Positions 6,438 through 51,558 of a stretch of DNA of 64,000 bases are shown piece by piece. The DNA comes from Thalassovita aquimarina (GTDB lineage Bacteria > Pseudomonadota > Alphaproteobacteria > Rhodobacterales > Rhodobacteraceae), in assembly GCF_018219815.1 (NCBI RefSeq), contig NZ_JADMKU010000001.1:310001-374000 (forward strand). Reading direction: 5' to 3'. A program made the position numbers and the translations under genes. The first letter of the stretch is position 1. Every line of letters begins with the position of its first letter. The notes beneath the pieces were generated by a model. It searched no databases, was not told where the DNA came from, and saw only the letters and a list, made by a program, of their open reading frames with translations.

Positions 6438-7676
6438 TTACCATTTCCAGGTCATGGCGACGGACAGTTCGTCCTGGCTCATCTGGGTGGAAATCGGCGT
6501 TACACCGTCCAGGGCCATCACCCCCGACAGAGAATTGTCGAAGGCGTGGGAATAAGACACGTGGAATTCACGCCGGTCATTGATCCGCATCGTGCCGCCG
6601 ATCGTGGCATGCCATTGCGGCGTTGCCGGTGCCAGCGTGTTCAGCGTCACCTGCGAAGAATCGGTGAACATCGTGTTGTAGGACACGCCGCCGCGCACCG
6701 TCCATTTGTCGCTGGCGCGGTATTCGGCGCCGATGCGGATCACGTCCATGTCGTCCCAGCCGAAACCGGGGCCGTCGGCGGCGCCAAGCGGGCTGGCGGT
6801 CGGGAAGGGATTACCCAGAGCTGCGACCTTGGAATAGAAAATCCGTTCCCATTCCGCGGTTAAGGTCCAGGCCGCGTTCGATTGCGGGGTGTAGGACAGG
6901 CCGACCTTGGCGGTTGCCGGAATGTCGAAATCGCCGCCCTCGGCGAAGAGGCCGGAATATTTCTCGAACGGCTCCATGTAGATCCGCGACCGGTAGCTGG
7001 CGCCGAAGGTAAACCCGTTGCCCGCGTTGATCACCGCGCCGACCATGGCGCCGGCGCCGAACGACCAGTCGTCGCCATTATCAGACAGCGCCGTTGCATC
7101 CGCCGAAAAGCCGCCGAAACCCGCCAGGCCAGTGGCCGAGAACCGCTGCGCGGCGATGATCGGGGCAAAGCCCAGCGACAGGCCGTTATCCAGATCGGTG
7201 GCATAGTTCACCTGGATGAAAAGCTGTTCCAGATTCACCCCCAACGGCCCGGGGATCACGCCGCCGCCGAAGAAGTTGGTCTGATATTCGGTATTCATGC
7301 CGCCGTTGCCGTACATCAGCACGCCGAGCGTCGATCCGTTTTCCAACCGGAAATTGCCGCCGCCACAGGGGACGGGGAAGAATTCCTTGTCACTGTCGAA
7401 GGTTCCCATGCCGGTGATCGTGGTCGACCGCTTGGGCGAAAACAGGCTCAGGCAGGCGCCCGCCTGATCGGGGTAACGGGTGCCCATGGCGGGATTCGCG
7501 GTCAATCCCATGACACCGGTGCCGATGGCGACGCCGGACCCGGCCATGCCTTTCGATTCAACGCTTGTGCCGTTGGAAAAATACCCGGTGGTCGCCACAG
7601 CCGGGGCTGCGAATAGCACGAGCGAAGTTGTGGCCAGAACGCCCAAGGGGCGCCGGCCGGCGAATTGTCTTGTCAT
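6438..7676 (-). CDS. OmpP1/FadL-family outer-membrane transporter
   Basis: Beta-barrel of the FadL family, which takes up hydrophobic compounds such as long-chain fatty acids through the outer membrane. A signal peptide (LGVLATTSLVLFAAPAVA, then ATTGYF) precedes the family N-terminus TGYFSNGTSVESKGMAGSGVA (about residues 30-50), the plug region that binds substrate. The mature chain ends in Trp-Lys-Trp, giving the terminal aromatic expected of outer-membrane proteins. I start at 7676, where GGAGGAG stands six bases before the ATG; the longer frame includes an AT-rich intergenic stretch. 412 aa is normal for the family. Divergent from the MttB-family gene. Exact substrate unknown. Confidence 0.93.
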   Translation of the reverse strand: MTRQFAGRRPLGVLATTSLVLFAAPAVATTGYFSNGTSVESKGMAGSGVAIGTGVMGLTANPAMGTRYPDQAGACLSLFSPKRSTTITGMGTFDSDKEFFPVPCGGGNFRLENGSTLGVLMYGNGGMNTEYQTNFFGGGVIPGPLGVNLEQLFIQVNYATDLDNGLSLGFAPIIAAQRFSATGLAGFGGFSADATALSDNGDDWSFGAGAMVGAVINAGNGFTFGASYRSRIYMEPFEKYSGLFAEGGDFDIPATAKVGLSYTPQSNAAWTLTAEWERIFYSKVAALGNPFPTASPLGAADGPGFGWDDMDVIRIGAEYRASDKWTVRGGVSYNTMFTDSSQVTLNTLAPATPQWHATIGGTMRINDRREFHVSYSHAFDNSLSGVMALDGVTPISTQMSQDELSVAMTWKW

Positions 7677-7945
7677 ATTTTCTCCTCCCAGACGGGTAAA
7701 AACCCTGAAGACCGGCCTCATTATGTGTTTCCAGGGCGCGGTGCTCCGAAATGGATAATTATATGCGCATGTGTAAATGTAAACATAAAATGCGTTTTTT
7801 CGAATATAACCGGCCAGAGGCCCGCCCGGCAATGTCGTATTTTTCCCTTGGAAGCCGCAATTCGCGCAGGCCGTGACGCCTTCTTTGGCTTAAACATGTG
7901 GCAAAGGCGGTTTCCGCTGCGCGCATAGGACAAAGGCAGGACGAG

Positions 7946-9490: not shown

Positions 9491-9789
9491 ACCGCGGTCA
9501 GATCGGGAAGCGATGTGCGCAGCAGGCGCGCTTCGCCCATGATAGCGATCAGAACCTCGACATGACGGGCGCAGGAATACCTGCAGCGGTCGGACTGCCG
9601 CTGCAGGTTCAAGTCGCGTTCGATCTCGATCAACTGGATCAGGCCCAGCCCGCTTCGCGGCAAGGCCTCGATTTCCAGAAGGCGGGCCAAGTGCTCGTTT
9701 CGATTGTATTGATCTGCACCGTTCCGCGCCGCGCGGATCAGCAGGCCAGGGCGCTTCATACGGCGTAGCATTCCAAAAACATCGGTCAT
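9445..9789 (-). CDS. DUF6477-family protein
   Basis: A 114-aa soluble protein I recognise as the roseobacter family DUF6477, with the typical opening MTDVFGMLRRMKRPGLLIRAAR, a central LIQLIEIERDLN, and ARHVEVLIAIMGEARLL. Function unknown. GGAG stands seven bases before the ATG. Its last 15 codons overlap the 3' end of the MttB-family gene tail to tail by 46 bp; the C-terminus EAFLSAT looks like the usual family ending, so the overlap is probably real and not an overrun. Divergent from the HTH/DUF6456 pair, its usual neighbour as far as I recall. Confidence 0.85.
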   Translation of the reverse strand: MTDVFGMLRRMKRPGLLIRAARNGADQYNRNEHLARLLEIEALPRSGLGLIQLIEIERDLNLQRQSDRCRYSCARHVEVLIAIMGEARLLRTSLPDLTAVQPIASGTEAFLSAT

Positions 9790-9923
9790 TTTTCATCTCC
9801 GCTCAAAATCACCGCTAAAAAGTAGCACCACCATAGAGGGTGTTGCGTCGCGGACGGACGACCGAACAGATCATTCCAATGTGATTCACATTTTGGGAAG
9901 AACGTAACTAACCGGGGAAGCCG

Positions 9924-9938
9924 TTAACCAACGATTAG
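9924..9938 (+). promoter_or_regulatory. Possible CtrA-like box
   Basis: The sequence TTAA-N7-TTAG differs by one base from the alphaproteobacterial CtrA site TTAA-N7-TTAA. It lies in the 231-bp divergent region between the DUF6477 gene and the HTH gene, 83 bp before the latter. One site of this simplicity can occur by chance. Confidence 0.25.
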
Positions 9939-10020
9939 CCTTAGAAAGCTTCAGTTGTGGATGGTTCTGGGGGAAAGTTGTGCAAAACCAGGACATTAGA
10001 ATTGACCTGGGAGAGTTGAA

Positions 10021-10314
10021 ATGTCCGACAGCCTGCGAAGGGAACCTGGTACGAAACATTTGCCCGATTGGGTGCCCGGATCGGTCCTGCTTTACCTGGA
10101 TCACACCGAAAGGGGGCTGTCGATGCGCAGGCTCGCGCGGCGCTCGGGTTGTCATGCCTCGACCGTGATGCGGCAAATTCGCAAGCTCGAAAACCGCCGC
10201 GATGACCGGTTGATGGACGAAGCGCTCAAGCGGTTGCGCGGCCAATATGTCGGTGAGACCCGGGCTGGTTTTCCTCGGAGCGAAACTCAAAAGGAATGCC
10301 AAATGAATGTTTAA
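10021..10314 (+). CDS. Helix-turn-helix protein, N-terminal half of an HTH/DUF6456 unit
   Basis: A 97-aa protein carrying a helix-turn-helix (GLSMRRLARRSGCHASTVMRQIRKLENRRDD, about residues 33-63, read here in two parts: GLSMRRLARRSGCHAS and TVMRQIRKLENRRDD). GGGAGAG stands five bases before the ATG. In relatives I remember, this HTH segment is fused to the DUF6456 domain in one longer chain; here a TAA at 10312 ends it and DUF6456 starts in the +1 frame with an 8-bp overlap. A real two-gene coupled arrangement, a frameshift mutation, or a sequencing error are all possible. Regulatory function inferred only from the HTH. Confidence 0.75.
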   Translation: MSDSLRREPGTKHLPDWVPGSVLLYLDHTERGLSMRRLARRSGCHASTVMRQIRKLENRRDDRLMDEALKRLRGQYVGETRAGFPRSETQKECQMNV

Positions 10315-11152
10315 AAAATCGTCTGCCTGCAAGCTACCGGACGAGGCCCACCTGAAGCAGGAGGCGCTGCGTATCCTGCCACGGCTGTGCGAAAAGACGG
10401 CCATGTTGGCGGTTGCGGCCGATATGGAAAAGGCGGTCGTGGTGCGCGAGGATGAAACCGGCGGCAACACCCGAACGGCGGTGGTCGATCGCGGCATCGC
10501 CGAAGCGATGGCGCTGAACAACTGGATCGATTGCGCCGATCCGGGCCGAATATCGCGCTATCACATCACGGCCGAAGGGCGCGCCGCGCTGGCCCGGCTT
10601 CTGGCGCAGGCCGAAATCCGTGCTCAGGCCGGCTTCGCAGAGGCACCTACCGCTTTCAATATGGCGCCCGATGATGGGGAGGGAACCGCTTCAATCCCCG
10701 GACAGGCACCGTTGCGTCGCCACCGCTACAACGCGGCGGAATCGCCGATGATGCTGCTGGCCCGGCGCAAGGACCGGAACGGCAAGCCGTTCCTGAGCCC
10801 GGACCTGGTGGCGGCGGGCGAAAGGCTGCGTGAAGATTTCGAGCTGGCGCGGATGGAAACGCCGACGCCCCAGGACTGGGACCGGGTGCTGTCGCCGGCC
10901 GAACCCGGCGACGTGCGGGATGGAAAAGAAGGGGCCACCGCGCGCGAAAGGGTCGCCAGTGCGCTGAGCGACCTCGGGCCGGGGCTGGGCGATGTCGCCT
11001 TGCGCTGCAGTTGCTACCTCGAAGGGCTGGAAGCCGCGGAAAAGCGGATGGGATGGTCGGCGTGGTCGGGCAAGATCGTTCTGCGCATCGCCTTGCAGCG
11101 GTTGAAGATGCACTACGAAAACCTGGGCGAATCCGCCGCGATGATCGGTTAA
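10307..11152 (+). CDS. DUF6456-domain protein
   Basis: A 281-aa protein. The N-terminal part has a winged-helix look (EALRILPRLCEKTAMLAVAADMEKAVVV, then VVDRGIAEAMALNNWIDC). The C-terminal 150 residues match DUF6456, an alphaproteobacterial domain of unknown function: the block ESPMMLLARRKDRNGKPFLS, then AGERLREDFELA, and the closing GWSAWSGKIVLRIALQRL. AAGGA lies 11 bases before the ATG at 10307, and a TGA immediately precedes that ATG in this frame, so it begins as a separate, probably coupled cistron behind the HTH gene. Its TAA overlaps the convergent VIT gene's stop codon. Confidence 0.8.
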   Translation: MFKKSSACKLPDEAHLKQEALRILPRLCEKTAMLAVAADMEKAVVVREDETGGNTRTAVVDRGIAEAMALNNWIDCADPGRISRYHITAEGRAALARLLAQAEIRAQAGFAEAPTAFNMAPDDGEGTASIPGQAPLRRHRYNAAESPMMLLARRKDRNGKPFLSPDLVAAGERLREDFELARMETPTPQDWDRVLSPAEPGDVRDGKEGATARERVASALSDLGPGLGDVALRCSCYLEGLEAAEKRMGWSAWSGKIVLRIALQRLKMHYENLGESAAMIG

Positions 11153-11865
11153 CCGCCCACCAGCCAGCCGACGAAGAACGCCACCGCCGCGCAGATCGAC
11201 CCGACGCCCAGCGTTTCGGTCACCGCGCGGCCGTAGCTTTCGCGCGTCGCCCAGCCGCGCAGCACACCCAGAAGCGCCAGCGCCAGCAGGGTCAGGCTCA
11301 GCGACAACCGGAAACTGGCCTCATCGGCGGTGCGAAACAGGTAGGGCAGGATCGGCAACAGCCCGAACACCACGAAGGCCGCGAAGGTGACCAGCCCGTT
11401 CAGCGCCGGGTTTTCGCTTTCCGGCGCGGCGCCGGCATTTTCCTGGCTCAGCAGCATGTCGGCCATCATAGGCGCATGTTTCGACATCGCCTCGGCCGCC
11501 TGTTGCGCCTCCGACGGCGGCAGCCCGCGTTTGCCGAAATGATCCGCCAGCCGGGCGGTTGCACCGCTCTGGTCCCGTTGGATCATTTCCAGCCGTTCGG
11601 ACCGGCGGCGGCGATACATCTGGTGCTGCGACCGGGCCGACAGGAATTCGCCCAACCCCATGCTGACGGCATCCGCAAAGAGGTTCGCCAGCCCGAACAC
11701 CACAACGGCCAGCCCGCCGATCTGCACCAAACCCTCTGCCTGTGCTCCCGCGAAACCCGCGACTATAGCGAAGGTTGTGACGATCCCGTCATTGCCGCCA
11801 TAAACGATCTGCTTGAGGTAATCGCGCACACGATCTAGGGTTCCGTTGGTTTTGTGCTCAGTCAT
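11149..11865 (-). CDS. VIT1/CCC1 transporter-family protein
   Basis: A 238-aa membrane protein of the vacuolar iron transporter family, which exports Fe2+ or Mn2+ from the cytoplasm. The signature YLKQIVYGGNDGIVTTFAIVAGFAGA lies at about residues 15-40 (helix 1), followed by LFADAVSMGLGEFLSARSQ (helix 2), both rich in the acidic and Met residues that line the metal path. A cytoplasmic charged stretch (about 85-150) precedes three more helices. I start at the ATG at 11865 rather than the upstream TTG at 11895. Its stop codon shares two bases with the convergent DUF6456 stop through a TTAA palindrome. Metal specificity not proven. Confidence 0.9.
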   Translation of the reverse strand: MTEHKTNGTLDRVRDYLKQIVYGGNDGIVTTFAIVAGFAGAQAEGLVQIGGLAVVVFGLANLFADAVSMGLGEFLSARSQHQMYRRRRSERLEMIQRDQSGATARLADHFGKRGLPPSEAQQAAEAMSKHAPMMADMLLSQENAGAAPESENPALNGLVTFAAFVVFGLLPILPYLFRTADEASFRLSLSLTLLALALLGVLRGWATRESYGRAVTETLGVGSICAAVAFFVGWLVGG

Positions 11866-12019
11866 GCGGATCAATCTGTTGTCTGTTCGGTTCAACTATA
11901 GAAACTGACGGGAAAAGAAACAGGGGGTCACACCCCCAGAGTCGAAAAGACTACCGAGCACGTTTCGGGCAACGATAAGCCCCCTTTGCCTCCGTGATGC
12001 AATACGATAATCGGAAGTT

Positions 12020-12979
12020 ATGAACATCACGCTCAGGCAACTGGAATATTTCATCGCACTGGCCGAGCTGCGCAATTTCGGCCGCGCCGCCGAAAGCGTG
12101 CATATTTCGCAGCCCGCGCTGTCGGTCCAGATCCGTGAACTCGAAGCCCAGCTGGGTCAGCAGCTGGTCGAACGCAAGGCGCGGGATGTTGCGCTGACGC
12201 CGTTCGGCCGCAAGATCCTCGACCATGCCGAACGGGTGCTGGGAGAAATGCAATCGCTGAAGGAACAGGCGCGCTGGCACGACGGTCTTGCCGGCAAGCT
12301 GCGGCTGGGGATGATCCCCACCATCGCCCCCTATGTCCTGCCCGCCGCACTGGCCGCGCTGCGTTCGCGTGATATCCGGCTCGACGTGCAGGTGCAGGAA
12401 GGCAAGACCGACCAGCTGATCGAGGCATTGCGCGCGGGCGAACTGGACGTGGCGCTGCTGGCGTTGCCGACGCTTGAAATGGACATGGCCGAGGTCCCGT
12501 TGTTCGAGGATCGTTTCGTGCTCGCGGGCACCGAAAAACGGCTGCAGGCCCTCGGGCCGATGCGTGAAAACCTGCGCCCCGACGCGCTTGGCCACAGCCA
12601 GCTGATGCTGCTCGAGGACGGCCACTGCCTGACCGATCAGGCGCTTGAAATCTGCGGCCGCAACCGTGGCCACGCCCAGATCAACATGGGCGCTTCGTCG
12701 CTGGCGACGCTGACGCGGCTGGTGGCGGCGGGATTCGGGCTGACCTTGATGCCGGAACTGGCGATCAGCGCCGAAACCCCGGCCAGCCCCACCTTGCGGA
12801 TGGTGCGCTTCGCCGGGACCGAGCCGGGGCGGCAGGTCGGACTGGTCCATCGTAAATCCACCCGGGGCGGTGCCTGGCTTGAGGCACTGGCCGAGATCCT
12901 GACCACGGCCGGGCTGGACCAGATCGAAAAGGCGCGGGGGCTGGTCGGGCAGGCCGCCGCATCATCCCGGACCGGCTAG
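12020..12979 (+). CDS. oxyR: OxyR, peroxide-sensing LysR-family regulator
   Basis: A 319-aa LysR-type protein that activates antioxidant genes when H2O2 oxidises its cysteine pair. The N-terminal winged HTH (about 1-60, LRQLEYFIALAELRNFGRAA) is canonical. The effector domain has LLEDGHCLTDQALEIC, placing Cys203 and Cys212 nine residues apart as C199 and C208 of E. coli OxyR, with the GHC context intact. This makes a peroxide sensor far more likely than a generic LysR protein. It is convergent with a peroxiredoxin gene rather than divergent from katG, and could regulate that gene. Start ATG at 12020. Confidence 0.93.
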   Translation: MNITLRQLEYFIALAELRNFGRAAESVHISQPALSVQIRELEAQLGQQLVERKARDVALTPFGRKILDHAERVLGEMQSLKEQARWHDGLAGKLRLGMIPTIAPYVLPAALAALRSRDIRLDVQVQEGKTDQLIEALRAGELDVALLALPTLEMDMAEVPLFEDRFVLAGTEKRLQALGPMRENLRPDALGHSQLMLLEDGHCLTDQALEICGRNRGHAQINMGASSLATLTRLVAAGFGLTLMPELAISAETPASPTLRMVRFAGTEPGRQVGLVHRKSTRGGAWLEALAEILTTAGLDQIEKARGLVGQAAASSRTG

Positions 12980-12980
12980 C

Positions 12981-13016
12981 AAAACAAAACCCGCGGGCCA
13001 AGCGGCGCCGCGGGTT
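12981..13016 (-). terminator. Intrinsic terminator behind the peroxiredoxin gene
   Basis: A nine-pair stem AACCCGCGG/CCGCGGGTT with an 11-base loop; on the minus strand it is followed by TTGTTTTG. It lies between the convergent oxyR and peroxiredoxin stops and suits the peroxiredoxin transcript best. Confidence 0.8.
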
Positions 13017-13039
13017 CCGTTCGGTGACTGGTAACGCGA

Positions 13040-13591
<552 letters not shown>

Positions 13592-13773
13592 TGGCAAATC
13601 CTCTTTTGTTCGGGTCTTCGGGTGAGCTACCTTTTAATCATTCTAAAATCGGCGGCAATCCCGTTTCTGCACGCGCAGCCTGAGAGAAGTTGTAAGAATT
13701 CATGGGCATATCGAGAGAAAGTCGTTATTTTCCCGCGACAATCGTGCAGCTGCGGCATTATGTCCTGCCCGAT

Positions 13774-13792
13774 CTGCATAACGGTTATGCAG
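13774..13792. promoter_or_regulatory. Perfect 19-bp palindrome upstream of lipA
   Basis: CTGCATAACGGTTATGCAG is a perfect 9-1-9 inverted repeat, 62 bp before the lipA start and just upstream of a possible -10 (TATAGT, 13819-13824). It has the size of a dimeric repressor or activator site. Which protein binds it is unknown. Confidence 0.5.
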
Positions 13793-13853
13793 TGCTGGCG
13801 GTTCCTTGATCGGCGAACTATAGTAGAAGCAGCCAAAACAACAGGACAGTCCC

Positions 13854-14804
13854 GTGCGCGATCTGAAAATCCCTCAGCAACGTCACCCGGAAAAGGCGCA
13901 TCGCCCCGACAATGCCCAGCCCAAGAAACCCGACTGGATTCGGGTCAAGGCGCCGGTTTCGGACGGTTACAAGCAGACCCACAAGATCATGCGCGAACAC
14001 AACCTGGTCACGGTTTGCGAAGAAGCGGGCTGCCCCAATGCCGGCGAATGCTGGAGCCAGGGCCACGCCACCATGATGATCATGGGCGACATCTGCACCC
14101 GCGGCTGCACCTTCTGCAACATCGCCACCGGCCGGCCCGATACGCTCGACGTGTTCGAACCGGGGCGGGTCGCCGACGCGGTGCAGAAGCTGGGGCTGAA
14201 CCACGTGGTGGTGACCAGCGTCGACCGTGACGACCTGAAGGACGGCGGCGCGGACCATTTCGCCCAGACCATCCGCGCCATTCGCCACCGTTCGCCCGGC
14301 ACCACGATCGAAATCCTGACCCCGGATTTCCTGAAATGCGATTCCTCGGTACTGGAAACGATTGTCGAAGCGAAACCGGACGTGTTTAACCACAACCTCG
14401 AAACCGTGCCCGGGCTTTACCCCGAAGTGCGCCCCGGCGCGCGCTATTTCCATTCGCTGCGCCTGTTGCAGCGTGTCAAGGAACTGGACCCGACCATGTT
14501 CACCAAGTCGGGCATCATGGTGGGGCTGGGCGAAGACAAGCAGGCGGTGCATCAGGTGATGGACGACATGCGCGCAGCCGATATCGATTTCCTCACCATC
14601 GGCCAATACCTGCAGCCGACGCCGAAACACCACGCAGTCGACCGGTTTGTGCACCCCGATGAATTCGCATCCTACGAAAAGGCGGCTTACGGCAAAGGTT
14701 TCCTGATGGTGTCGGCCACACCGCTGACCAGGTCGTCCTACCACGCCGGCGACGATTTCTCCCGGCTGCGCGCCGCGCGGCTGGAAAAGCTGGGTCAGGC
14801 TTGA
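13854..14804 (+). CDS. lipA: Lipoyl synthase
   Basis: Radical SAM enzyme that inserts two sulfurs into octanoyl-lipoyl domains to make lipoate cofactor. 316 aa. The auxiliary cluster cysteines are in [12 protein letters not shown] (about residues 55-66) and the radical SAM CxxxCxxC motif is CTRGCTFC (about 81-88); both [4Fe-4S] sites are complete, and the C-terminal SSYHA serine motif ([10 protein letters not shown]) is present. Translation probably begins at a GTG at 13854, seven bases after AGGA. Monocistronic as far as visible; followed by a repeat element in the sense orientation. Confidence 0.98.
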
Positions 14805-14817
14805 TTACATCATAGGC

Positions 14818-14904
14818 TGGGGGCGCCGCCCCCAGACCCCCGGGATATTTCTGAAAAGAAGAAGTTCAGGATATCACCGCCTTCTTCTTTTCAAAATATC
14901 CCCG
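14818..14904. repeat. 3'-end repeat element, inverted pair (copies B and C)
   Basis: Copy B follows lipA in sense: GGGGGC-GCC-GCCCCC, then the tag CCGGGATATTT...GAAGAAG (14840-14864). Copy C is the same tag on the minus strand (14881-14904), sense to the cytochrome gene that ends at 14984. The two tags form an inverted repeat with a 16-bp spacer, so the transcript could fold into a long hairpin. Copy A stands behind guaA. Confidence 0.8.
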
Positions 14905-14923
14905 CCGGAGGCAGGCCCGAAAG

Positions 14924-14974
14924 AAAATGCCGGAGGCATTTTATTGAGATATAAAGCGCGCCCGGAACGGGCGC
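14924..14974. terminator. Two hairpins between lipA and the cytochrome gene
   Basis: AAAATGCC/GGCATTTT with a 3-base loop (14924-14942) is a perfect inverted repeat ending in T4 on the plus strand and could terminate lipA. GCGCCCG/CGGGCGC (14958-14974) is followed on the minus strand by GCTTTATAT, a weak terminator for the diheme cytochrome gene. Confidence 0.5.
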
Positions 14975-14983
14975 ACAATCGGA

Positions 14984-15874
14984 TCACTCTACCGCCGGGA
15001 CGGCCTTGAGATAGGCGGCAATGGCGCGGCGATCCTCGATCGGCAATTTCGCGAGGTTCTGCACCACCTCGGCCATCTCGCCCCCGGCGCTGTCATAGTC
15101 CGGGGTGAAGCCGGAGGTGAAATATTCCACCAGATCGGCCACGGACCAGTCGAGCTTGCCCGGGGTGATATTGGGAATTCTGCCCTTGCCCGAGGGATTC
15201 GGCGCGCCCGCCAGCCAGCGGGTATAATCGATCCCGCCAAGGGCATTACGCGGGCTGTGACATTCGCCGCAATGGCCCAGTCCCTCGGCGAGGGTGCGGC
15301 CACGGGCGGCCTCGGGCGGCAAGTCGCCGGCGACCACCTGATCGGGGCCGGTGAACAGGAATTTCCAGCCCCCCAGCAAACGGCGGAGCGAGAAGGGGAA
15401 GCCGACCTCATGCGGCGTATCGGGAACCGTCGAGGCCGGCAGGGTCTGCAGGAAGGCCCACAGATCCACCATGTCCTGCAGGCTGGCGCGGGCATAGGAC
15501 GTGTAGGGGAAGGCCGGATAGTAATGATCGCCCCCCGGCGCCGTGCCGTGGCGCATCGCGTTGACCAGATCGGCCGCCTGCCAATCGCCGATCCCGTAGA
15601 CCGGGTCCGGGGAAATGTTTGGGGCATAGAACGTACCGAAATCGCTGGCGAAGGCGCGCCCGCCCGACAGAACCAGCCTTTCATCGCCCTCGGCGCCGGG
15701 GGCGGAATGGCAGGACGCGCAACCGCCTGCCCAGAACGCTGCTTCGCCGCGCACGGCATCGCCGGCCAGACCGGCGATATCGTTTTCGCGCACGCGTTCG
15801 GGGGTGGTGATCCACCAGAACGCCGCGCCCGCCAGAAGCATCGCGAAGGCGACGTATCCTGCAACCTTGAACAT
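14984..15874 (-). CDS. Membrane-anchored diheme c-type cytochrome
   Basis: A 296-aa periplasmic electron carrier anchored by an uncleaved N-terminal helix (VAGYVAFAMLLAGAAFWWI, residues 4-22). Two covalent heme sites are visible, CASCH at 52-56 and CGECH at 202-206; Met of GGEMAEV near the C-terminus is a candidate axial ligand for the second heme. The fold with YPAFPYTSY between the hemes resembles the cytochrome subunits of membrane-bound dehydrogenases, but no dehydrogenase gene is adjacent. It starts 15 bp after the stop of the monoheme cytochrome gene, so the two form an operon. Redox partner unknown. Confidence 0.92.
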   Translation of the reverse strand: MFKVAGYVAFAMLLAGAAFWWITTPERVRENDIAGLAGDAVRGEAAFWAGGCASCHSAPGAEGDERLVLSGGRAFASDFGTFYAPNISPDPVYGIGDWQAADLVNAMRHGTAPGGDHYYPAFPYTSYARASLQDMVDLWAFLQTLPASTVPDTPHEVGFPFSLRRLLGGWKFLFTGPDQVVAGDLPPEAARGRTLAEGLGHCGECHSPRNALGGIDYTRWLAGAPNPSGKGRIPNITPGKLDWSVADLVEYFTSGFTPDYDSAGGEMAEVVQNLAKLPIEDRRAIAAYLKAVPAVE

Positions 15875-15889
15875 ATCGCCCCGTCCGGA

Positions 15890-16348
15890 TCAGCTATCCG
15901 GCGCGCGATAGGCCTTGTGGCAGGCCCCGCAGGCCCCGCCCAGCGGCCCCATCGCACCCTGCAGCGCCTCGAGGCTTTGGCCGGCGGCCATTTCCATGCC
16001 TGCCGCGGCCTCGCCCAGGGCCATCACCTTTTTCATCACATCGTCGCCGTTTTCCCACATGGCGGGCAGGGCGCGGGTACCATCGGCCGACATTTCATCC
16101 GACCCTTCGGGCCACAGACGCGACGAATCGAGCTTGGTCAGCATTGCCAGGCTTGCAGCGGCGGCGCCGGCCTTGTCGGCGTCATAGGGTACGGCGCCTT
16201 TGGCCATGCCGCCCAGAAGCCCGAGGTAATGAGCATAGAGCTTCATCTGACCCTGACGGGCCTTGATTGCCGCCTCGTCGGCGGAAACCGCGCCGGCGAC
16301 CCCGCCAGCGAGGGTGAGAGCGAGGGTGAGCTTGGTAATGGCTTTCAT
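15890..16348 (-). CDS. Periplasmic cytochrome c' / c556-type protein
   Basis: A 152-aa secreted monoheme cytochrome. A signal peptide (LTLALTLAGGVAGAVSA) is followed by a four-helix-bundle region with RQGQMK near residues 31-36, where Met is the likely axial ligand in c556-like proteins. The heme motif CGACH is at the C-terminus (140-144), the placement typical of cytochrome c'. Start at the ATG at 16348, eight bases after GGAG; the longer frame adds twelve unlikely residues. First gene of a two-cytochrome operon. Role not defined: electron transfer or NO binding are known for the family. Confidence 0.9.
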   Translation of the reverse strand: MKAITKLTLALTLAGGVAGAVSADEAAIKARQGQMKLYAHYLGLLGGMAKGAVPYDADKAGAAAASLAMLTKLDSSRLWPEGSDEMSADGTRALPAMWENGDDVMKKVMALGEAAAGMEMAAGQSLEALQGAMGPLGGACGACHKAYRAPDS

Positions 16349-16432
16349 CGGTGAAACTCCGCTTTGGCTGCTAATAAGACGCACCTTAAACGGCGGGCAG
16401 GCGGAAGGAATTCACAACTTCGTCAGAACCGT

Positions 16433-16606
16433 TCAGGGACGCATGAATCGTCCGCGCCCTTCGACCGTCGCCCAGTCCGGCCAGCCAATCCAGCGTTCCA
16501 CCGCATAAACGACCAAGCAGATCACGATGATGAGAAGAACCAGCCGGACCCGGCGCGCGGAGGGCGGATTGCGCGCCCATTTCGACATCCGGAACAACCA
16601 GTGCAT
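16433..16606 (-). CDS. 57-aa small membrane protein downstream of hpt
   Basis: A short frame with an ATG at 16606, seven bases after the hpt stop codon. The product starts MHWLFRMSKWARNPPSARRV, has one hydrophobic helix (LVLLIIVICLVVYAV, residues 22-36) and then a short Trp-rich tail (ERWIGWPDWATVEGRGRF). The basic N-terminus before the helix predicts an N-in topology. I believe similar short proteins follow hpt in related genomes. Function unknown. No strong Shine-Dalgarno, so translation is probably coupled to hpt. Confidence 0.75.
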   Translation of the reverse strand: MHWLFRMSKWARNPPSARRVRLVLLIIVICLVVYAVERWIGWPDWATVEGRGRFMRP

Positions 16607-16613
16607 CGCGGTC

Positions 16614-17165
16614 TCAGGCCTTGTCCTCGTCGACGAAGCGGACCTTGCCGATATGGGGCAGGTTGCGGTTGCGCTGCGCGAAATCGATGCCGTAGCCGAC
16701 GACGAATTCGTCGGGGATCTCGAACCCGATCCAGTCGGCCTTTACGTCGGTTTCCCGGCGCGTCGGTTTGTCCAGAAGGGCGATGGTTTTCAGCCGCTTC
16801 GGGTTGCGCGATTTCAGCAGGCCCAGCACGTGGGTCAGCGTGTAGCCTGTATCGACGATGTCTTCGACGACCAGCACGTCGCGGCCTTCGATTTCGCCGC
16901 GCAGATCCTTCAGGATGCGCACCTCGCGGCTGCTTTCCATCGCGTTGCCGTAGGACGATGCTTCGAGGAAATCGACCTCCACCGGCAGGTCCAATTCGCG
17001 CACCAGATCGGCAATGAATACGAAACTGCCGCGCAGTAGCCCGACCACGACGAGCTTCCTGGTATCGGAGAATTCCTTTTCGATCTCGCGCGCCAGGGCT
17101 TCGATCCGCGCGGCGATCTGTTTGGCTGAAATCATCTCGTCGATGACATATGGACGCTCCGGCAT
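16614..17165 (-). CDS. hpt: Hypoxanthine phosphoribosyltransferase
   Basis: Salvages hypoxanthine or guanine with PRPP to IMP or GMP. 183 aa, family-typical. The PRPP-binding loop is [14 protein letters not shown] (about residues 97-110), the early catalytic loop GLLRGSFVF lies near 42-50, and the purine-contact region [16 protein letters not shown] near 146-161. I start at the ATG at 17165, preceded by AAGGGGG; the much longer frame upstream overlaps the divergent RatA-like gene and is a shadow. Likely transcribed with the small membrane protein downstream. Confidence 0.96.
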
Positions 17166-17234
17166 GACACCCCCTTGCATTTCCGGGCCCAGTCTACGAA
17201 ATGATCCCCCACTGTCACGCGAAAAAGGGGCAAC

Positions 17235-17687
17235 ATGCCGACCCATTCCGAAACCCGGCACCTGCCATACACGGCGCAGCAGATGTACGATCTGGTGGCC
17301 GATGTGGCGGCCTATCCGAAATTCCTGCCCTGGTGCGCTGCAGCGCGGATACGCAAGGTCACGCCGCAGGGCGACGGGACCGAGGTGATGGAGGCCGATC
17401 TGGTGATCAGCTTCAAGGTGTTTCGCGAACGCTTCGGCAGTCGGGTCGCCCTGAATCCGCAGGCGCTGTCGATCGACACCGAATATCTGGAAGGGCCGTT
17501 CAAGTACATGAAATCGAACTGGTCCTTCGCCGCGGCCGGGGATGGCTGCGACGTGTCCTTCTTCGTCGATTTCGAATTCAAGAACGCGGTGTTGCAGGGC
17601 ATCATCGGCGTGGTGTTCAACGAAGCGATGCATCGCATCGTGCGGGCCTTCGAAAGCCGGGCGGAAGCGCTTTACGGCAGCCGCTGA
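17235..17687 (+). CDS. RatA/COQ10-type START-domain protein
   Basis: A 150-aa protein of the polyketide-cyclase/START superfamily. The opening [21 protein letters not shown] and the Trp-Cys in [10 protein letters not shown] are diagnostic of the RatA/COQ10 family. In mitochondria and alphaproteobacteria COQ10-like proteins bind and deliver ubiquinone; the RatA toxin label in gamma-proteobacteria is probably not apt here. Cytoplasmic or membrane-peripheral, no signal peptide. Divergent from hpt with a 69-bp shared promoter region. I favour a ubiquinone chaperone. Confidence 0.88.
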
Positions 17688-45789: not shown

Positions 45790-47601
45790 TCACTCCTGAT
45801 ACCACCAGACGTCGGGCGCCCAGCCGATACGGTCGCCATAAATCGGTGTATTTGATGGAAAATGCAACGCCCTTGAATGGGCGATGCGGCTCGGACCGCC
45901 GCCCCAGATCGGGATCACGTAGCGCCCGGCCATCAGCAACCGGTCGAGCGCCCGCGCGGCGGCGGTGAAATCTTCGCTGCTGCGTGCGGTCAGCATGGTG
46001 TCGATCATCGCGTCGATGGCAGGGTTTTTCACCCCCATGAGGTTACGCGACCCTTCGATATCGGCGCGGTCGCTGCCCCAGTAGAGGGCCTGTTCGTTGC
46101 CCGGGCTGAGCGACAGGTAGCGGATGAAGGGCATCATGTCGAAATCCTGCCGTGCCTCGCGTTCGGCATATTGGGCGTTGTCGACCTCGTCGATCCGCAT
46201 CTCGATGCCCAACCGCTGCAGCGCAGCGCGGTAGATTTCCATCACCGTGCGGGTCTGCTTGTCGCCCTGCCGCATCAGCATGGTGAAGGCGAAGGGCTGA
46301 CCGTCCTTGGCGAGCTTTCCTTCGGTCACGGTCCAACCCGCCTGCCGAAGCAGTTTCTGCGCCCGGACCAGATCGCGGCGATTGCGCGCCTTGGCGTCGC
46401 CTTCGGGCAGGGTGATCCCTTCAAGCGTACCGGGCAGCAGATCGGCGGCGAAGGGTTGCAGTAATTCACGGGTGCGCCCTTCGGCCGGGCCGGGGCGCAG
46501 GCCGAGAGCCGAGTTGGAGAAATAGGAGGAGATGCGCGGCTGGCGCCCGCCGGTGACGGTGCCGTTGATGTAGGGAAAATTGAAGGCCAGGATCATCGCC
46601 TCGCGCACGCGCCAGTCTGCGAAAACCGGGCTGCGCGCATTCATCACATACCCCACCATGCCGGTCGGACGTTGATGCGGTATCTCGGATTTGACGATAT
46701 CGCCCGAACGCACCGCGGGGAAATCGTATTGCGCGGCCCATTTTTCGGCGTTGGTTTCACGGTAGAAGGTTACCGCCCCGGCCTTGAAGGCCTCGAACAG
46801 CACCGACTGGTCGCCGAAGAATTCCAGCCGGATTTCATCCAGGTTGTTGGTGCCCCTGCGGAACGGCAGGTCCTTGCCCCAGTAGTCGGGGTTGCGCGAC
46901 AACGTGACATAGCGGCCCTGTTCGTAATCGCCCACGACGTAAGGACCGGTGCCCAGAGGGATGTCGTGCAGCGACGATTCAGTGAAATCCTTACCCTGCC
47001 ACTGCGCCTTTTTCAGGATCGGCCGCATCCCGGCGATCAGCGCCAGTTCGCGGTCTTCGATATTGAAGCTGATCCGCAGTGTGCGCGGGCCGGTCTGTTC
47101 GATCCGCTCCACCTTGTCCCAGAAGCCGCGGTAACGCGGGTGGCCGGCGGTGCCGAGGGTTTCATAGGACCAAATCACGTCCTCGACCGTGACCGGGCTG
47201 CCATCGGAAAACGCCGCTTCCTCGCGCAGGGTGAATTCGACCCAGGACCGGTCGTCGGGCACTTCGACGGTTTCGGCCAGCAGTCCGTAAAGGGTGAAGG
47301 GTTCGTCCCAATTGCGTGCCATCAGCGATTCGTAGCCGAGGAATCGCAGCTGCCAGGGCGACGTCCCCTTCAGGATGAACGGGTTGAGCGAATCGAATCC
47401 GCCGGTATTCCCCACGACCATCGCCCCGCCTTTGGGCGCGTCGGGGTTGGCATAGGGCAATGCGCTGAAATTGGCCGGCAGCGCCGGTTCGCCATACATC
47501 GCGATTCCGTGACTGGGGCCGGCCTGCCCCATGGAGGCCAATAAAACAAGAGCCGTGACGCCGATGCCCCGCGTAAAGGACCGGAAAATCTCTGATCGCA
47601 T
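45790..47601 (-). CDS. YejA-type extracellular peptide-binding protein
   Basis: A 603-aa ABC-transporter substrate-binding protein of the oligopeptide class. A signal peptide (GIGVTALVLLASMGQA) precedes HGIAMYGEPALPANFSALPY (the YejA-like start) and NPDAPKGGAMVVGNTGGFDS; FWDKVERIEQTG and GTGPYVVGDYEQGRYVTLSRNPDYWG are further family blocks, the latter split here as GTGPYVVGDYEQGRY. YejA proteins bind peptides, including microcin C or peptidoglycan peptides. No yejB, yejE or yejF permease genes are adjacent, so it is an orphan here. Followed by the entericidin-like gene. Confidence 0.9.
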   Translation of the reverse strand: MRSEIFRSFTRGIGVTALVLLASMGQAGPSHGIAMYGEPALPANFSALPYANPDAPKGGAMVVGNTGGFDSLNPFILKGTSPWQLRFLGYESLMARNWDEPFTLYGLLAETVEVPDDRSWVEFTLREEAAFSDGSPVTVEDVIWSYETLGTAGHPRYRGFWDKVERIEQTGPRTLRISFNIEDRELALIAGMRPILKKAQWQGKDFTESSLHDIPLGTGPYVVGDYEQGRYVTLSRNPDYWGKDLPFRRGTNNLDEIRLEFFGDQSVLFEAFKAGAVTFYRETNAEKWAAQYDFPAVRSGDIVKSEIPHQRPTGMVGYVMNARSPVFADWRVREAMILAFNFPYINGTVTGGRQPRISSYFSNSALGLRPGPAEGRTRELLQPFAADLLPGTLEGITLPEGDAKARNRRDLVRAQKLLRQAGWTVTEGKLAKDGQPFAFTMLMRQGDKQTRTVMEIYRAALQRLGIEMRIDEVDNAQYAEREARQDFDMMPFIRYLSLSPGNEQALYWGSDRADIEGSRNLMGVKNPAIDAMIDTMLTARSSEDFTAAARALDRLLMAGRYVIPIWGGGPSRIAHSRALHFPSNTPIYGDRIGWAPDVWWYQE

Positions 47602-47680
47602 TGTGGCAACAATCCTACTCTGCCTTTATTTTCTTTGGACTTAGCCTAGGGGGGGATTCAGGCCAATTCAATTTTTTAGC

Positions 47681-47708
47681 TTGGAAGGTGGCGCTTCATT
47701 GCTTATAA
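47681..47708 (+). promoter_or_regulatory. Sigma-70-like promoter of the sRNA candidate
   Basis: -35 TTGGAA (47681-47686), 16-bp spacer, -10 TTATAA (47703-47708). It points at the hairpin RNA ending at 47791 and away from the YejA-type gene. Confidence 0.55.
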
Positions 47709-47713
47709 AGGGG

Positions 47714-47791
47714 TTACTGCTCGATAGGTTTCTTGCCTGTATGAAACCTGCCTCAATAACTTAACGCCGGCTTCGTGCCGGCGTTTTTTTT
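47714..47791 (+). ncRNA. Candidate small RNA with its own promoter and terminator
   Basis: A roughly 78-nt transcript predicted between the YejA-type gene and the 3-hydroxybutyrate dehydrogenase gene. It would start about six bases after TTATAA, contain a first hairpin AGGTTTC/GAAACCT (47726-47749, loop TTGCCTGTAT), a single-stranded stretch CTGCCTCAATAACTTA, and a strong intrinsic terminator AACGCCGGC/GCCGGCGTT followed by T7 (47763-47791). The two-hairpin form with a terminal U-run fits Hfq-dependent regulatory RNAs, and hfq is present. I do not recognise a known family. Its T-run end lies 77 bp before the dehydrogenase start, so a leader role for that gene is less likely. Confidence 0.6.
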
Positions 47792-47867
47792 GCGTATTTC
47801 CCCCGACTCGTCAGGGCCACGGGCTTGCGATATTCTGCGCCTGCAAAATGAGGCAGAGGAGAGCTCA

Positions 47868-48641
47868 ATGACATTGCAGGGAAAAACCGCCGTCATCACC
47901 GGGTCGAATTCCGGGATCGGGCTGGGCGTGGCGCGGGAACTGGCGCGCGCGGGCGCCGATATCGTTTTAAATTCCTTTACCGACCGGGATGAGGATCATG
48001 CGCTGGCGGCGGCGATCGGCTCGGAATTCGGCGTCACCGCGCGCTATGTGGCGGCCGACATGTCGAAGGCCGGCGACTGCCGGGCGCTGATCGAAAGCGC
48101 CGGAACCTGCGATATCCTGGTCAACAATGCCGGTATCCAGCACGTCGCGCCGATCGACGAATTTCCGGCCGACAAGTGGGACGCGATCATCGCCATCAAC
48201 ATGAATTCGGCCTTTCACACCACCGCCGCCGCTTTGCCGAAGATGCGGGCTGCGGGCTGGGGCAGGGTGGTGAATATCGCCTCCGCCCACGGTCTGACCG
48301 CGTCGCCCTACAAATCGGCCTATGTGGCGGCCAAGCACGGTGTGGTGGGGCTGACCAAGGTGACCGCGCTGGAAACCGCCGAGGAACCGATCACCGCCAA
48401 CGCGATCTGCCCCGGTTACGTGCTGACCCCGCTGGTCGAGGCGCAGATCCCCGACACGATGGAAAAATACTGCATGGGCCGTGAAGAGGTGATCAAGAAG
48501 GTGATGCTGGATCGCCAGCCGAGCCGCGAGTTTGCCACCGTGGAACAGTTGGGCGGCACCACCGTGTTCCTGTGTTCGGACGCGGCGGCGCAGATCACCG
48601 GCACCACGATCAGCGTCGATGGCGGTTGGACCGCGCTTTAA
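47868..48641 (+). CDS. bdhA: 3-Hydroxybutyrate dehydrogenase (SDR family)
   Basis: Interconverts D-3-hydroxybutyrate and acetoacetate with NAD, in PHB/ketone-body use. 257 aa. Cofactor loop TGSNSGIGLGVA, NNAG motif, catalytic Ser in NIASAHG and Tyr-Lys in YVAAK; the C-terminal QPSREFATVEQLGGTTVFLCS is typical of 3-hydroxybutyrate dehydrogenases. GAGGAGAG is seven bases before the ATG at 47868. Monocistronic, converging on the DUF502 gene. Confidence 0.93.
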   Translation: MTLQGKTAVITGSNSGIGLGVARELARAGADIVLNSFTDRDEDHALAAAIGSEFGVTARYVAADMSKAGDCRALIESAGTCDILVNNAGIQHVAPIDEFPADKWDAIIAINMNSAFHTTAAALPKMRAAGWGRVVNIASAHGLTASPYKSAYVAAKHGVVGLTKVTALETAEEPITANAICPGYVLTPLVEAQIPDTMEKYCMGREEVIKKVMLDRQPSREFATVEQLGGTTVFLCSDAAAQITGTTISVDGGWTAL

Positions 48642-48655
48642 GCTGCGGAAGGGGC

Positions 48656-49363
48656 TCAGGCTTCTGGCTTGGATTTCTTGCCTGGCGTTTGCACCGGTTT
48701 CTTGGGGTTGGGATAAACCAGACCGGCCGAGATCACCAACTTGGCGGCGTCTTCCACGGTCATGTCGAGTTCGATCACGTCGCGGCGCGGAAAATAGAGC
48801 AGGAAGCCCGAGGTCGGGTTCGGCGTGGTCGGCACGAAGACGCTAAGCAGATCGTCGTCCTCGGGATGACCGGCGCGGCTGACGATTTCGCCCTTGGCCT
48901 CGGTCGACACGAAACCGACGGCCCAGATGCCCTTGCGCGGGTATTCGACCATGCAGGCCTTTTCGAAGCTGCGTTCGGACTGGGCGAAGACGGTTTCGGC
49001 GATCTGCTTCACTCCGGAATAGATCGAGCGCACCACCGGCATCCGTTCCACCAGCGATTCCGCGAAGCGGATCAGCGACCGCCCCATCAGCCCCTTGGCG
49101 ATCCAGCCCACCAGGATGGTGAAGAACAGGAAGAAGAAGATGCCGACGCCACGCAGATTGATGCCGATATACTGTTCCGGCTGGAACCGTTCGGGCACCA
49201 GCGGCAGCACGAAACTGTCGACCCAGCCGGCGAAGGACCACAGGAACCAGATAGTCAATCCGACCGGCGCGATCACCACGATCCCGGTCAGGAAACTGGA
49301 GCGCAGCCGGGCAAACAGCCCCGGGCGTCGGGGCGGCATATCTGGATCGAACGGCGTGTTCAT
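48656..49363 (-). CDS. DUF502-family membrane protein
   Basis: A 235-aa inner-membrane protein with two helices: FLTGIVVIAPVGLTIWFLW and IFFFLFFTILVGWIAKGLM, followed by a soluble region with the family block VRSIYSGVKQIAETVF and SVFVPTTPNPTSGFLLYFP. Plant relatives (LCV-like/COV) act in membrane trafficking; bacterial function unknown. I start at MNTPFDPDMPP (ATG at 49363); the longer frame needs a TTG. No operon partner visible. Confidence 0.9.
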   Translation of the reverse strand: MNTPFDPDMPPRRPGLFARLRSSFLTGIVVIAPVGLTIWFLWSFAGWVDSFVLPLVPERFQPEQYIGINLRGVGIFFFLFFTILVGWIAKGLMGRSLIRFAESLVERMPVVRSIYSGVKQIAETVFAQSERSFEKACMVEYPRKGIWAVGFVSTEAKGEIVSRAGHPEDDDLLSVFVPTTPNPTSGFLLYFPRRDVIELDMTVEDAAKLVISAGLVYPNPKKPVQTPGKKSKPEA

Positions 49364-49468
49364 TCTGAGCGGTTCCCGCGGCGGTTTCACAAGCGTCAAC
49401 GCTTAGATAGGCGCTTTGCCGTCGCGTCACAATGACTGGTTTAATCCGCGGCGGCTATTGCGGGCCGC

Positions 49469-50374
49469 TCAGCCCAATTCGCGGGCTATTGCGGCGGCGA
49501 GCCGGGCATTGTTCAGCACCAGCGCGATATTCGCCTCGAGGGATCGGCCCTCGGTCAGTTCGAAGATCCGCTGCAGCAGGAACGGGGTCACCGCCTTGCC
49601 GGCAATGCCTTGCGCTCCGGCTTCGGCCATCGCCTGCACGATGATGGGGTCGATCTCCGTTTTCGCGATCTCGGCCTCGGCCGGGATCGGGTTGGCGATC
49701 AGCTGACCGCCGGGCAGTCCCAGTTGCGCGCGCAGCGCGTGCGCGGCGGCGATATCGGCGGCGCTGTCCATCCGCAGCGGCGCGATGAGGTCGGAGGCGG
49801 CGGACCAGAAGGCGGGGAAGACATCCTGCCCATAGGCGATGACCGGCACGCCGTAGGTTTCCAGCACTTCCAGCGTTTTCGGCAGATCGAGGATCGCCTT
49901 GGCCCCGGCGGCCACCACGGTGACCGGTGTTTCCGACAGTTCGCGCAGGTCGGCCGAAATGTCGAAGCTGTCCTCGGCCCCCTTGTGCACGCCGCCGATA
50001 CCGCCGGTGGCGAAGACCTTGATCCCGGCCAGATGCGCCCCGATCATGGTCGCCGCGACGGTGGTGGCGCCGGTGCCGCCCGCGGCCATGCAGGCGGCCA
50101 GATCGGCGCGGCTGAGTTTGGACACCCCCTGCGCCTGGGCCAGGTTTTCCAGCTGCGCATCGGTCAACCCGGCATGCAATTGCCCGTCGATCACCGCGAT
50201 GGTGGCGGGAACGGCACCCGCGGCGCGGACCTCGGCCTCGACCCGGCGGGCGGTTTCGAGGTTCTGCGGATAGGGCATGCCATGGGTGATGATGGTGCTT
50301 TCCAGCGCCACCAGGGCGTGGCCTTCGGACTTGGCTGTGGCAACTTCGGGGGACAGGATCGGGGCGTATGTCAT
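49469..50374 (-). CDS. psuG: Pseudouridine-5'-phosphate glycosidase
   Basis: Cleaves pseudouridine 5'-phosphate to uracil and ribose 5-phosphate (reversible C-glycosidase). 301 aa. The opening ALVALESTIITHGMPYPQNLE, the GGTGATTVAATM loop, FATGGIGGVHKGAEDSFDIS with the metal-binding Asp and VVAAGAKAILDLPKTLE with the catalytic Lys are all family-typical. Its ATG overlaps the psuK-like stop by 4 bp (ATGA), so kinase and glycosidase are coupled, giving a complete pseudouridine breakdown route. Confidence 0.95.
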   Translation of the reverse strand: MTYAPILSPEVATAKSEGHALVALESTIITHGMPYPQNLETARRVEAEVRAAGAVPATIAVIDGQLHAGLTDAQLENLAQAQGVSKLSRADLAACMAAGGTGATTVAATMIGAHLAGIKVFATGGIGGVHKGAEDSFDISADLRELSETPVTVVAAGAKAILDLPKTLEVLETYGVPVIAYGQDVFPAFWSAASDLIAPLRMDSAADIAAAHALRAQLGLPGGQLIANPIPAEAEIAKTEIDPIIVQAMAEAGAQGIAGKAVTPFLLQRIFELTEGRSLEANIALVLNNARLAAAIARELG

Positions 50375-51264
50375 GCGGGTTCTACTCCGGAAACGAAGGT
50401 GGCGGCGGCGGCAAGCGCGCGATCGAGGGCCTGTTCACGCGATGCACCGGTGGTTTCGGCGGCCATGTGGGCCGCCATGAACGTATCCCCCGCGCCGGTG
50501 ACACGGGCAACCGGAACGGCGGCGGGCTTGGCAAGGATCAGGCCCGCGGCGCTGGCGTCGCAGGCGGGATTGGCACCGTCTGTGACCAACGCACGCGCCG
50601 CGCCGTGCCGCAGCAGCGTCTTCGCCGCCTCGGCCGCGCTGTCGAAGCGCAGTTGGCACAGGATGCCCGCCTCTTCGAGGTTGACGTACAGCACCGCACG
50701 CGGATGGCGCAGGAACGGCAGCAGCCGGTCGGCCTTGCCCGGGGAGGCCGGGGCGACGCGCAGATCGGCACGGGCAAAGGCGGCGTTGGTGGCGATTTCT
50801 TCCAGCAGGGCGACGGTCAGGTTGCCGTCGAGCGCGATCAAACCGTCGTAGGGGCTGTCCGTCGTGCCCAGCGGGCCCTGCATCAGCGGGCGCAGGATGT
50901 TGACGCCCGCCGCTTCCAGCGAATGCGCATCGGCGATCGCCGCGATCAGACCGTTGGCGCCCTCGACCGCGAGGTAACGGTCGGTCGGCAGGTTATCGGC
51001 ACGGTAGACATGGCGGGTGCACACGCCAAGCGCGTCACACGCCGTAAGCAATTCGTCTCCCTCCGCATCGCGGCCGATGGCGGTTAATACGGAGGGCGAC
51101 AGCCCGAACCGGCCCAGGGCGACCGCTATATTCATCGCCACGCCACCGGGCAGCCGTTCGATCCGGCCCGGCACGTCCTGCCCTTGCCGCATCGCGATGG
51201 TGGCACGGCCGATCACATCCCACAGGACCGATCCGATGCACAGGATATCTGGAGCTGTTGTCAT
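50371..51264 (-). CDS. psuK: PfkB-family carbohydrate kinase, likely pseudouridine kinase
   Basis: A 297-aa ribokinase-like enzyme. N-terminal SVLWDVIGRA, PfkB-1 region RLPGGVAMNIAVALGRFG near 38-55 and the PfkB-2 signature VTGAGDTFMAAHMA near the C-terminus with the catalytic Asp. Its coupling to psuG suggests it phosphorylates pseudouridine to pseudouridine 5'-phosphate. No pseudouridine transporter (psuT) is adjacent. I start at the ATG at 51264; the longer frame adds 35 unsupported residues. Confidence 0.9.
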   Translation of the reverse strand: MTTAPDILCIGSVLWDVIGRATIAMRQGQDVPGRIERLPGGVAMNIAVALGRFGLSPSVLTAIGRDAEGDELLTACDALGVCTRHVYRADNLPTDRYLAVEGANGLIAAIADAHSLEAAGVNILRPLMQGPLGTTDSPYDGLIALDGNLTVALLEEIATNAAFARADLRVAPASPGKADRLLPFLRHPRAVLYVNLEEAGILCQLRFDSAAEAAKTLLRHGAARALVTDGANPACDASAAGLILAKPAAVPVARVTGAGDTFMAAHMAAETTGASREQALDRALAAAATFVSGVEPA

Positions 51265-51558
51265 GGAATCGCTTTGACACCGAATAATGGGGCGTTTCAA
51301 GAAGTTACTGCGGGCGATATGAAAACAGCAGCGTGACGTCGGGGCAGGCCCGCATGACCTGCCCGGCACTATTGAGAGAGGTGAAAGAGAAGGCGGTACA
51401 GCGTCATCATGGATGCGATCGATGCACCGGCCGATTCGCTTTACAAATCCTGCGGCTTCGGCGAAACCACGCGCCGGGCCAAAGGCTGCGGGGCAGGGGA
51501 GTGGCGTCTGCCGCCGGCCCGAGGTGGCAGGTTTTTCCGTTTCGCGACGGTGTAGGGG

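Follow-up and report, generated by a model that had tools for sequence, protein, structure and literature searches.

Does the short interval between two divergent genes of Thalassovita aquimarina hold a small RNA (sRNA) gene of its own and, if so, what kind of RNA would it make? The window analysed here is a stretch of 64,000 nucleotides (contig NZ_JADMKU010000001.1, positions 310,001 to 374,000), and all coordinates below are positions within it. At 47681-47791 the window carries a predicted sRNA gene, flanked by a divergent solute-binding protein gene on one side and a 3-hydroxybutyrate dehydrogenase gene, here called bdhA, on the other (Table 1). An earlier sequence-only reading had proposed an independent, trans-acting sRNA of the Hfq type at this place. 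Our analyses indicate that the locus is very probably a real sRNA gene, that it represents a new family within a known kind, and that its trans-acting and Hfq-type character can plausibly be inferred.

Table 1. Features of the sRNA locus and its neighbours, with positions in the window and the basis of each assignment.
Feature	Position	Strand	Basis
Upstream block TTCAATTTTTTAGC	47667-47680	+	Abuts the -35 hexamer; identity 0.70-0.96 per position among 180 loci
-35-like hexamer TTGGAA	47681-47686	+	Sequence; TTGG kept at 0.89-1.00 among 180 distinct loci
-10-like hexamer TATAAA	47704-47709	+	17-nt spacing from TTGGAA; TATAA kept at 0.81-0.99
Predicted sRNA, about 74-76 nt	47716-47791	+	Near-invariance from A47716; covariance model matches
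Exposed conserved 5' end ACUGCUCGAU	47716-47725	+	Mean unpaired probabilities, 37 relatives
Nearly invariant hairpin AGGUUUC-(UUGCCUGUAU)-GAAACCU	47726-47749	+	
Linker GCCUCAAUAACUUA	47750-47763	+	Initial GCCUC is part of the conserved core
Rho-independent terminator, 8-9 pairs, UUCGU loop, eight T	47764-47791	+	Covarying stem
SBP_bac_5 neighbour, extracellular solute-binding protein family 5, divergent	45790-47601	-	Pfam PF00496, E 1.3e-63
3-hydroxybutyrate dehydrogenase neighbour (bdhA)	47868-48641	+	TIGR01963, 356 bits (cut-off 307)

All the elements that had been claimed for the locus can be found by inspection. The seven-pair hairpin is present, with the arms AGGTTTC (47726-47732) and GAAACCT (47743-47749) enclosing a 10-nt loop. 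So is the terminator with its T run: the arms ACGCCGGC (47764-47771) and GCCGGCGT (47777-47784) form a stem that runs into eight T (47784-47791). Among the listed forward frames of at least 40 codons none ends at the terminator, as had been stated, and the stop codon of a 7-codon frame lies at its foot (47764). The gene layout was likewise described correctly, with the upstream gene divergent (45790-47601, minus strand) and the ATG of bdhA, at 47868, 77 nt past the terminator. Beyond bdhA, on the minus strand (48656-51369), the window holds genes for a DUF502 protein and an Indigoidine_A family protein, which is ordinary gene content; by our own reading of its translation, the frame adjoining the Indigoidine_A gene may encode a PfkB-like sugar kinase.

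Sequence statistics on their own are mixed. The predicted folding energy of the 80-nt stretch is -28.9 kcal/mol, whereas shuffled versions average -15.7 (z -4.72), and none of 200 shuffles was as good. A consensus promoter scan called 0 promoters at the locus, and the number of terminator-like sites in 46000-50000 is 4, equal to the shuffled mean of 4.0. Simple pattern scans alone make an unconvincing case; it is because of its conservation that the locus stands far above chance.

Homologues of the locus are found throughout the family. BLAST searches with a 121-nt region returned one in each of 37 Rhodobacteraceae genomes (E 3.1e-15 or better), and no convincing one in 24 other members of the class (best E 0.0016). 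A covariance model, R1, built from 30 loci, matches 193 of 198 evenly drawn family genomes (172 of the 174 good ones), all 196 genomes drawn from the order Rhodobacterales, every one of them shown as the same family, and 123 of 125 genomes of one large genus. This leaves five family genomes and two genus genomes without a match to the model; the five family misses persist after scoring more candidates, and three of the five are less than 80% complete. In 289 genomes of the class there are four strong matches (at least 108 bits), all in the same family, and the next best scores 37.6 bits. In the 28 genomes that were rescored with more candidates second matches reach at most 32.3 bits, and on these genomes the gene looks single-copy.

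The 37.6-bit match lies outside the family, in genome G438 (L063, 1501-1598, minus strand), and has the linker AAAGCCUCCCUGUAAAACUU and a strong terminator. We rejected it as a homologue, as its linker reads CCUCCCU; it looks like an alphaR8-type sRNA, to judge by its sequence, of a distant alphaproteobacterium.

A scan of named genomes for the exact 39-nt core of the RNA (A47716-47754) gave at least 118 stretches, and the 80 titles listed are, going by their genera, Rhodobacterales or give "Alphaproteobacteria" only (4). Neomegalonema, which carries the exact core, is placed in Rhodobacterales. Viral contigs hold no exact core and phages gave no BLAST match. In a plasmid collection the exact core occurs in four Paracoccus records, on replicons of 1.5-2.2 Mb.

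The degree of constraint on the core is high. It is exact in 35 of the 37 BLAST relatives and has one mismatch in the other two. In a set of 23 genomes, 21 of them picked as low scorers, it is exact in 17 and has one mismatch in two, while the remaining four show 2, 3 and 6 mismatches and one inserted base (11 in an ungapped count). These core figures are free of selection by the core for the 37 BLAST relatives and for the low scorers among the set of 23. The profile of 180 loci used in Table 1 was partly chosen by the exact core and cut on part of it, so its values of 1.00 are partly there by construction.

The two hairpins are constrained in different ways. In the 29 distinct rows of a free alignment none of the seven pairs of the first stem varies, and six of the seven never vary in the 34 rows of alignment A2, low-scoring family members included. 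This stem is nearly invariant, without covariation support of its own. In the terminator stem, compensatory changes affect 3 of 8 pairs over the 29 rows of the free alignment and all 8 pairs over the 34 rows of A2, an alignment that holds the set of 23 genomes and was fitted to the model, and so leans towards structure. The 3' end carries a run of 7 or more T in 30 rows and of 6 or more in 34 rows. Long 3' T runs are usual in Hfq sRNAs, and such U tails are of the sort that Hfq holds. Loss of the hairpins in relatives had been named beforehand as an outcome that would count against an sRNA; the hairpins are conserved, and the claim stands.

The conservation profile also speaks to the promoter. 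Among the relatives, the bases that separate the -10 box from A47716 are less conserved, and near-invariance then sets in sharply at A47716 itself, 7 nt past that box. From this pattern we place the -10 box at TATAAA, with 17-nt spacing, and the predicted start at A47716, the A of ACTGCTCG. The promoter had been read as TTGGAA-16-TTATAA; its TTGGAA holds, and the -10 hexamer moves one base later. Transcription is thus likely to begin at A47716 and to yield an RNA of about 74-76 nt, and the sRNA seems to have a promoter of its own. Together, the order-wide conservation, the conserved promoter and the covarying terminator strongly support the proposal of an independent sRNA gene.

A strongly conserved, AT-rich block of 14-16 nt precedes the -35 box, between the two divergent genes, and the relatives' consensus of this block is approximately TTCAAACTTTTAGC, followed by TTGG. 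The 16-mer CAAAYTTTTARCTTGR is found at the sRNA locus with at most one mismatch in 20 of 20 picked genomes, and the same 20 genomes have only three other sites at this level (two in G077 and one in G011); at two mismatches the 16-mer has about as many sites as a reversed control. We therefore rejected the 16-mer as a shared regulon box, since at up to one mismatch it is nearly confined to the sRNA locus in these 20 genomes. The block may act as an UP-like element, or a dedicated regulator may bind there.

Could the conserved stretch encode a small peptide, or a dual-function RNA, rather than a purely regulatory RNA? The window has a 7-codon frame, ATGAAACCTGCCTCAATAACTTAA (ATG AAA CCT GCC TCA ATA ACT TAA, 47741-47764), and a stop after seven codons is shared by 98 of the 180 distinct loci. 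The frame has no in-frame stop within the stretch in 56 of these partly core-selected loci, one has no ATG, and 25 others stop at 5, 8, 11 or 19-21 codons. Moreover, the 39-letter core shows no synonymous change in 35 of 37 genomes, the opposite of what coding on either strand would produce. With the mini-ORF not kept and synonymous changes absent, the core is, on the sequences compared, not protein-coding, and we regard a peptide as highly improbable.

A divergent homologue of the solute-binding protein (SBP) gene accompanies the RNA at 187 of 199 oriented loci, and five of the twelve exceptions have fewer than 300 nt on that side. A bdhA gene is adjacent (more than 50% identity, same strand, within 1500 nt) in 151 of the 183 loci that have at least 900 nt downstream. 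In these counts some genomes were fetched twice, so that not all loci are independent, and orienting a locus required part of the core. The genome that resembles R. sphaeroides 2.4.1 (G083, identified by an exact match to the StsR probe) has the same gene arrangement around its homologue. The SBP and bdhA synteny is widely conserved; this says nothing for either gene as a target.

The frequent presence of bdhA downstream on the same strand would also be expected if the RNA were the terminated leader, or attenuator, of this gene, with transcription either stopping at the terminator or reading through into bdhA. There is a precedent in the same family, UpsM of R. sphaeroides, which is reported to arise as the terminated leader of the dcw gene cluster (PMC5089854). 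However, the 32 of 183 loci without an adjacent bdhA, by the criterion used, still carry the core. Among the leaders listed, bdhA begins anywhere between 119 and 1052 nt from the core, and 64 of 151 bdhA leaders have a TGCAGCA box of their own. A leader of bdhA is in our view an unlikely account of the locus.

The bdhA leaders downstream of the sRNA (e.g. L045 and L120) often carry a box like TTTGCAGGTGCAGCA, which we presume to resemble a PhaR-type site. Besides TGCAGCA, the longer GCAGNTGCAGCA occurs in 30 of the 151 leaders; the window's own bdhA leader is without an exact TGCAGCA.

We then asked whether the RNA belongs to a family that is already described. A scan of the locus against Rfam 15 gave no family at its gathering score, and so the sequence-only reading, which did not recognise the family, was right as far as Rfam 15 goes. 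Two matches below threshold run over the full length, SorX at 22.3 bits and suhB/mmgR at 21.4 bits. A known RNA of similar general plan is alphaR8 (mmgR of S. meliloti, SisA-D of Caulobacter; RF00519), which like the present sRNA is about 77 nt long and has a weak hairpin, a C/U-rich linker and a Rho-independent terminator.

According to a study of alphaR8 (PMC12559287), this RNA is described in all Alphaproteobacteria except the Rickettsiales and has the 10-mer UUUCCUCCCU as a feature; the same source relates mmgR to polyhydroxybutyrate storage, and the sRNA described here lies near a 3-hydroxybutyrate gene. In most species a copy of alphaR8 lies next to an N-formylglutamate amidohydrolase gene. 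The order of hairpin, C-rich linker, ACUU and terminator is also common to alphaR8, SorX and our locus. These likenesses would suit an RNA of the alphaR8/mmgR or SorX families that has diverged in the Rhodobacterales. Against this, the scores are about half of the gathering scores (46.6 for SorX and 41 for RF00519), the 10-mer occurs in 0 of the 64 aligned rows of A1 (whose rows are the best 30 of the 37 BLAST relatives) and A2, the window included, and the neighbours are SBP_bac_5 and bdhA, with no N-formylglutamate amidohydrolase gene. In addition, five of the 37 family genomes that carry the sRNA have a separate RF00519 locus above the cut-off. The co-occurrence, the missing 10-mer, the sub-threshold score and the neighbours rule out that the sRNA is alphaR8/mmgR itself, and we consider membership of either family as a divergent branch very improbable. 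An ancient duplication linking the sRNA and alphaR8 is possible, their layouts being alike.

RF00519 reaches its gathering score in only 5 of the 37 family genomes. In most Rhodobacterales it has either diverged beyond the model or been lost.

SorX (RF02784), from R. sphaeroides, has a 73-nt model that aligns over its full length and shares the plan of a hairpin plus a terminator. It is ruled out by the score of the sRNA, 22.3 of the 46.6 bits required; further, SorX is derived from a 3' UTR, going by a title cited in PMC8307010, whereas the sRNA has a predicted promoter of its own. StsR, an RpoH-dependent RNA of R. sphaeroides, is, like the one here, a short terminated sRNA of the same bacterial family. 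The published StsR probe matches C4:858073 in G083 and the sRNA homologue lies at C4:1443994-1444073 (minus strand, model coordinates), so that StsR is ruled out by position; the probe has no site in the genome of the window (G000) with up to two mismatches.

A further comparison is with Intergenic 134 of P. denitrificans PD1222. Its report (PMC5107571) gives it as 84 nt, confirmed by RT-PCR, with 5,830-17,250 normalised reads, present in many Rhodobacteraceae, and sharing sequence and genetic context with a putative R. sphaeroides sRNA. It resembles our sRNA in size and in its occurrence in Rhodobacteraceae. From the numbering of the table in that report, Intergenic 134 appears to lie on chromosome 2, and we find the sRNA on a secondary replicon of 1.5-2.2 Mb in P. 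pantotrophus, P. versutus and P. ferrooxidans. However, the species list given there for Intergenic 134 is without Dinoroseobacter and Roseobacter and includes Rhizobiales and Actinobacteria (PMC5107571), unlike the sRNA, for which class genomes outside the family gave no strong match. Because that list fits only partly, Intergenic 60 of the same report, 80 nt long and with Dinoroseobacter and Roseobacter in its species list, remains a second candidate. Compared by description, size, replicon and context, the sRNA may be Intergenic 134. The trans-sRNAs of R. pomeroyi are given as 101-351 nt, with sizes and no sequences in the section consulted, and are not comparable with the sRNA. In the literature searched, with older R. 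sphaeroides sRNA surveys lying outside it, an order-wide family of this kind is not described, bar the possible Intergenic 134; a literature search by sequence fragment returned only unrelated Salmonella work.

What might the RNA do? Its predicted structure leaves much of the conserved sequence accessible. Averaged over the 37 relatives, the first seven bases of the 5' end (ACUGCUC) are unpaired at 0.87-1.00 and the next three at 0.29, 0.71 and 0.15, and the loop and most of the linker also have high predicted unpaired probabilities. As these probabilities are high in the 5' end, the loop and the linker, the three segments would be the ones offered for pairing.

We searched for partners of these segments in the neighbouring genes and at distant loci. 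The bdhA leader of the window contains TGAGGCAG, an exact complement of the sRNA segment CUGCCUCA, beside the ribosome site. The leader was rejected as a conserved target because GAGGCAG is found in only 6 of 151 bdhA leaders. GAGCAG occurs in 28 of 157 SBP leaders, compared with a mono-shuffled mean of 4.2 (two of the 28 are the sRNA's own antisense), and the SBP leader was not convincing as a target, there being no clear gain in duplex energy. Duplex energies of the sRNA with the SBP and bdhA leaders are near those of shuffled sequences (mean z -0.26 and -0.25), and a reversed-sRNA control on both leaders gave z values of 0.09 and 0.02.

For distant targets, 61 genomes were searched for exact 10-mer complements of the linker, the loop and the 5' end within 30 nt of an ATG, a search that is blind to shorter or wobble pairing. 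One match per genome and at most 30 per search were taken as loci, recurrence was judged on two of the three seed searches, and no recurrent orthologous target was seen among the loci examined. One gene did recur, in four loci, and was rejected as an in-frame coincidence inside a long open frame; we take the segment concerned to be a helicase P-loop. Reversed-pattern controls fall far below the pattern counts in two of the three seed searches. By our estimate the seed-match counts are near plain random expectation, and we claim no enrichment.

That these searches found no pairing target, and that stem and loop are near-invariant together, is what one might expect of an RNA that acts mainly through protein binding, by sequestration or as a scaffold, with the protein fixing the sequence and shape of the hairpin. 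Outside the hairpin, though, the exposed 5' end and the first part of the linker are about equally invariant. We know of no protein partner of the sRNA, and a mainly protein-binding role seems to us unlikely.

The reading we prefer, with a probability of roughly 0.7, is a stand-alone base-pairing sRNA that is transcribed independently, probably depends on Hfq and exposes three nearly invariant segments. It would be transcribed from its own promoter, starting at about A47716 and ending near 47791 at the Rho-independent terminator. The RNA would then present its 5' end ACUGCUC, the loop UUGCCUGUAU and the beginning of the linker that follows the stem, arranged around the nearly invariant 7-pair stem and followed by the terminator with its U tail. 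Hfq would hold this tail, and at least one of the exposed segments would pair in trans with several mRNAs or with other sRNAs, altering the translation or stability of the partner. Several partners sharing the core would account for letters that are fixed beyond what a fixed structure asks for. A bolder version, which we put forward tentatively and think less probable than not by a good distance, is that the sRNA is a Rhodobacterales-specific core riboregulator, lineage-defining and absent from Rfam, whose roughly 40 nt, stem included, are fixed by long pairing with equally fixed partners, either an sRNA sponge or a core set of mRNAs.

The near-invariance of this sRNA across the whole order Rhodobacterales is its notable feature. 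With a homologue in nearly all tested members, mostly in one syntenic place, and no strong match in the genomes searched outside the family, the sRNA makes a strong candidate core regulator. The order comprises major bacteria of the sea and the soil, among them the well-used models R. sphaeroides, R. pomeroyi and P. denitrificans. For work in these model strains, the alignment and the covariance model mark out the gene, its predicted start and the segments that lie exposed.
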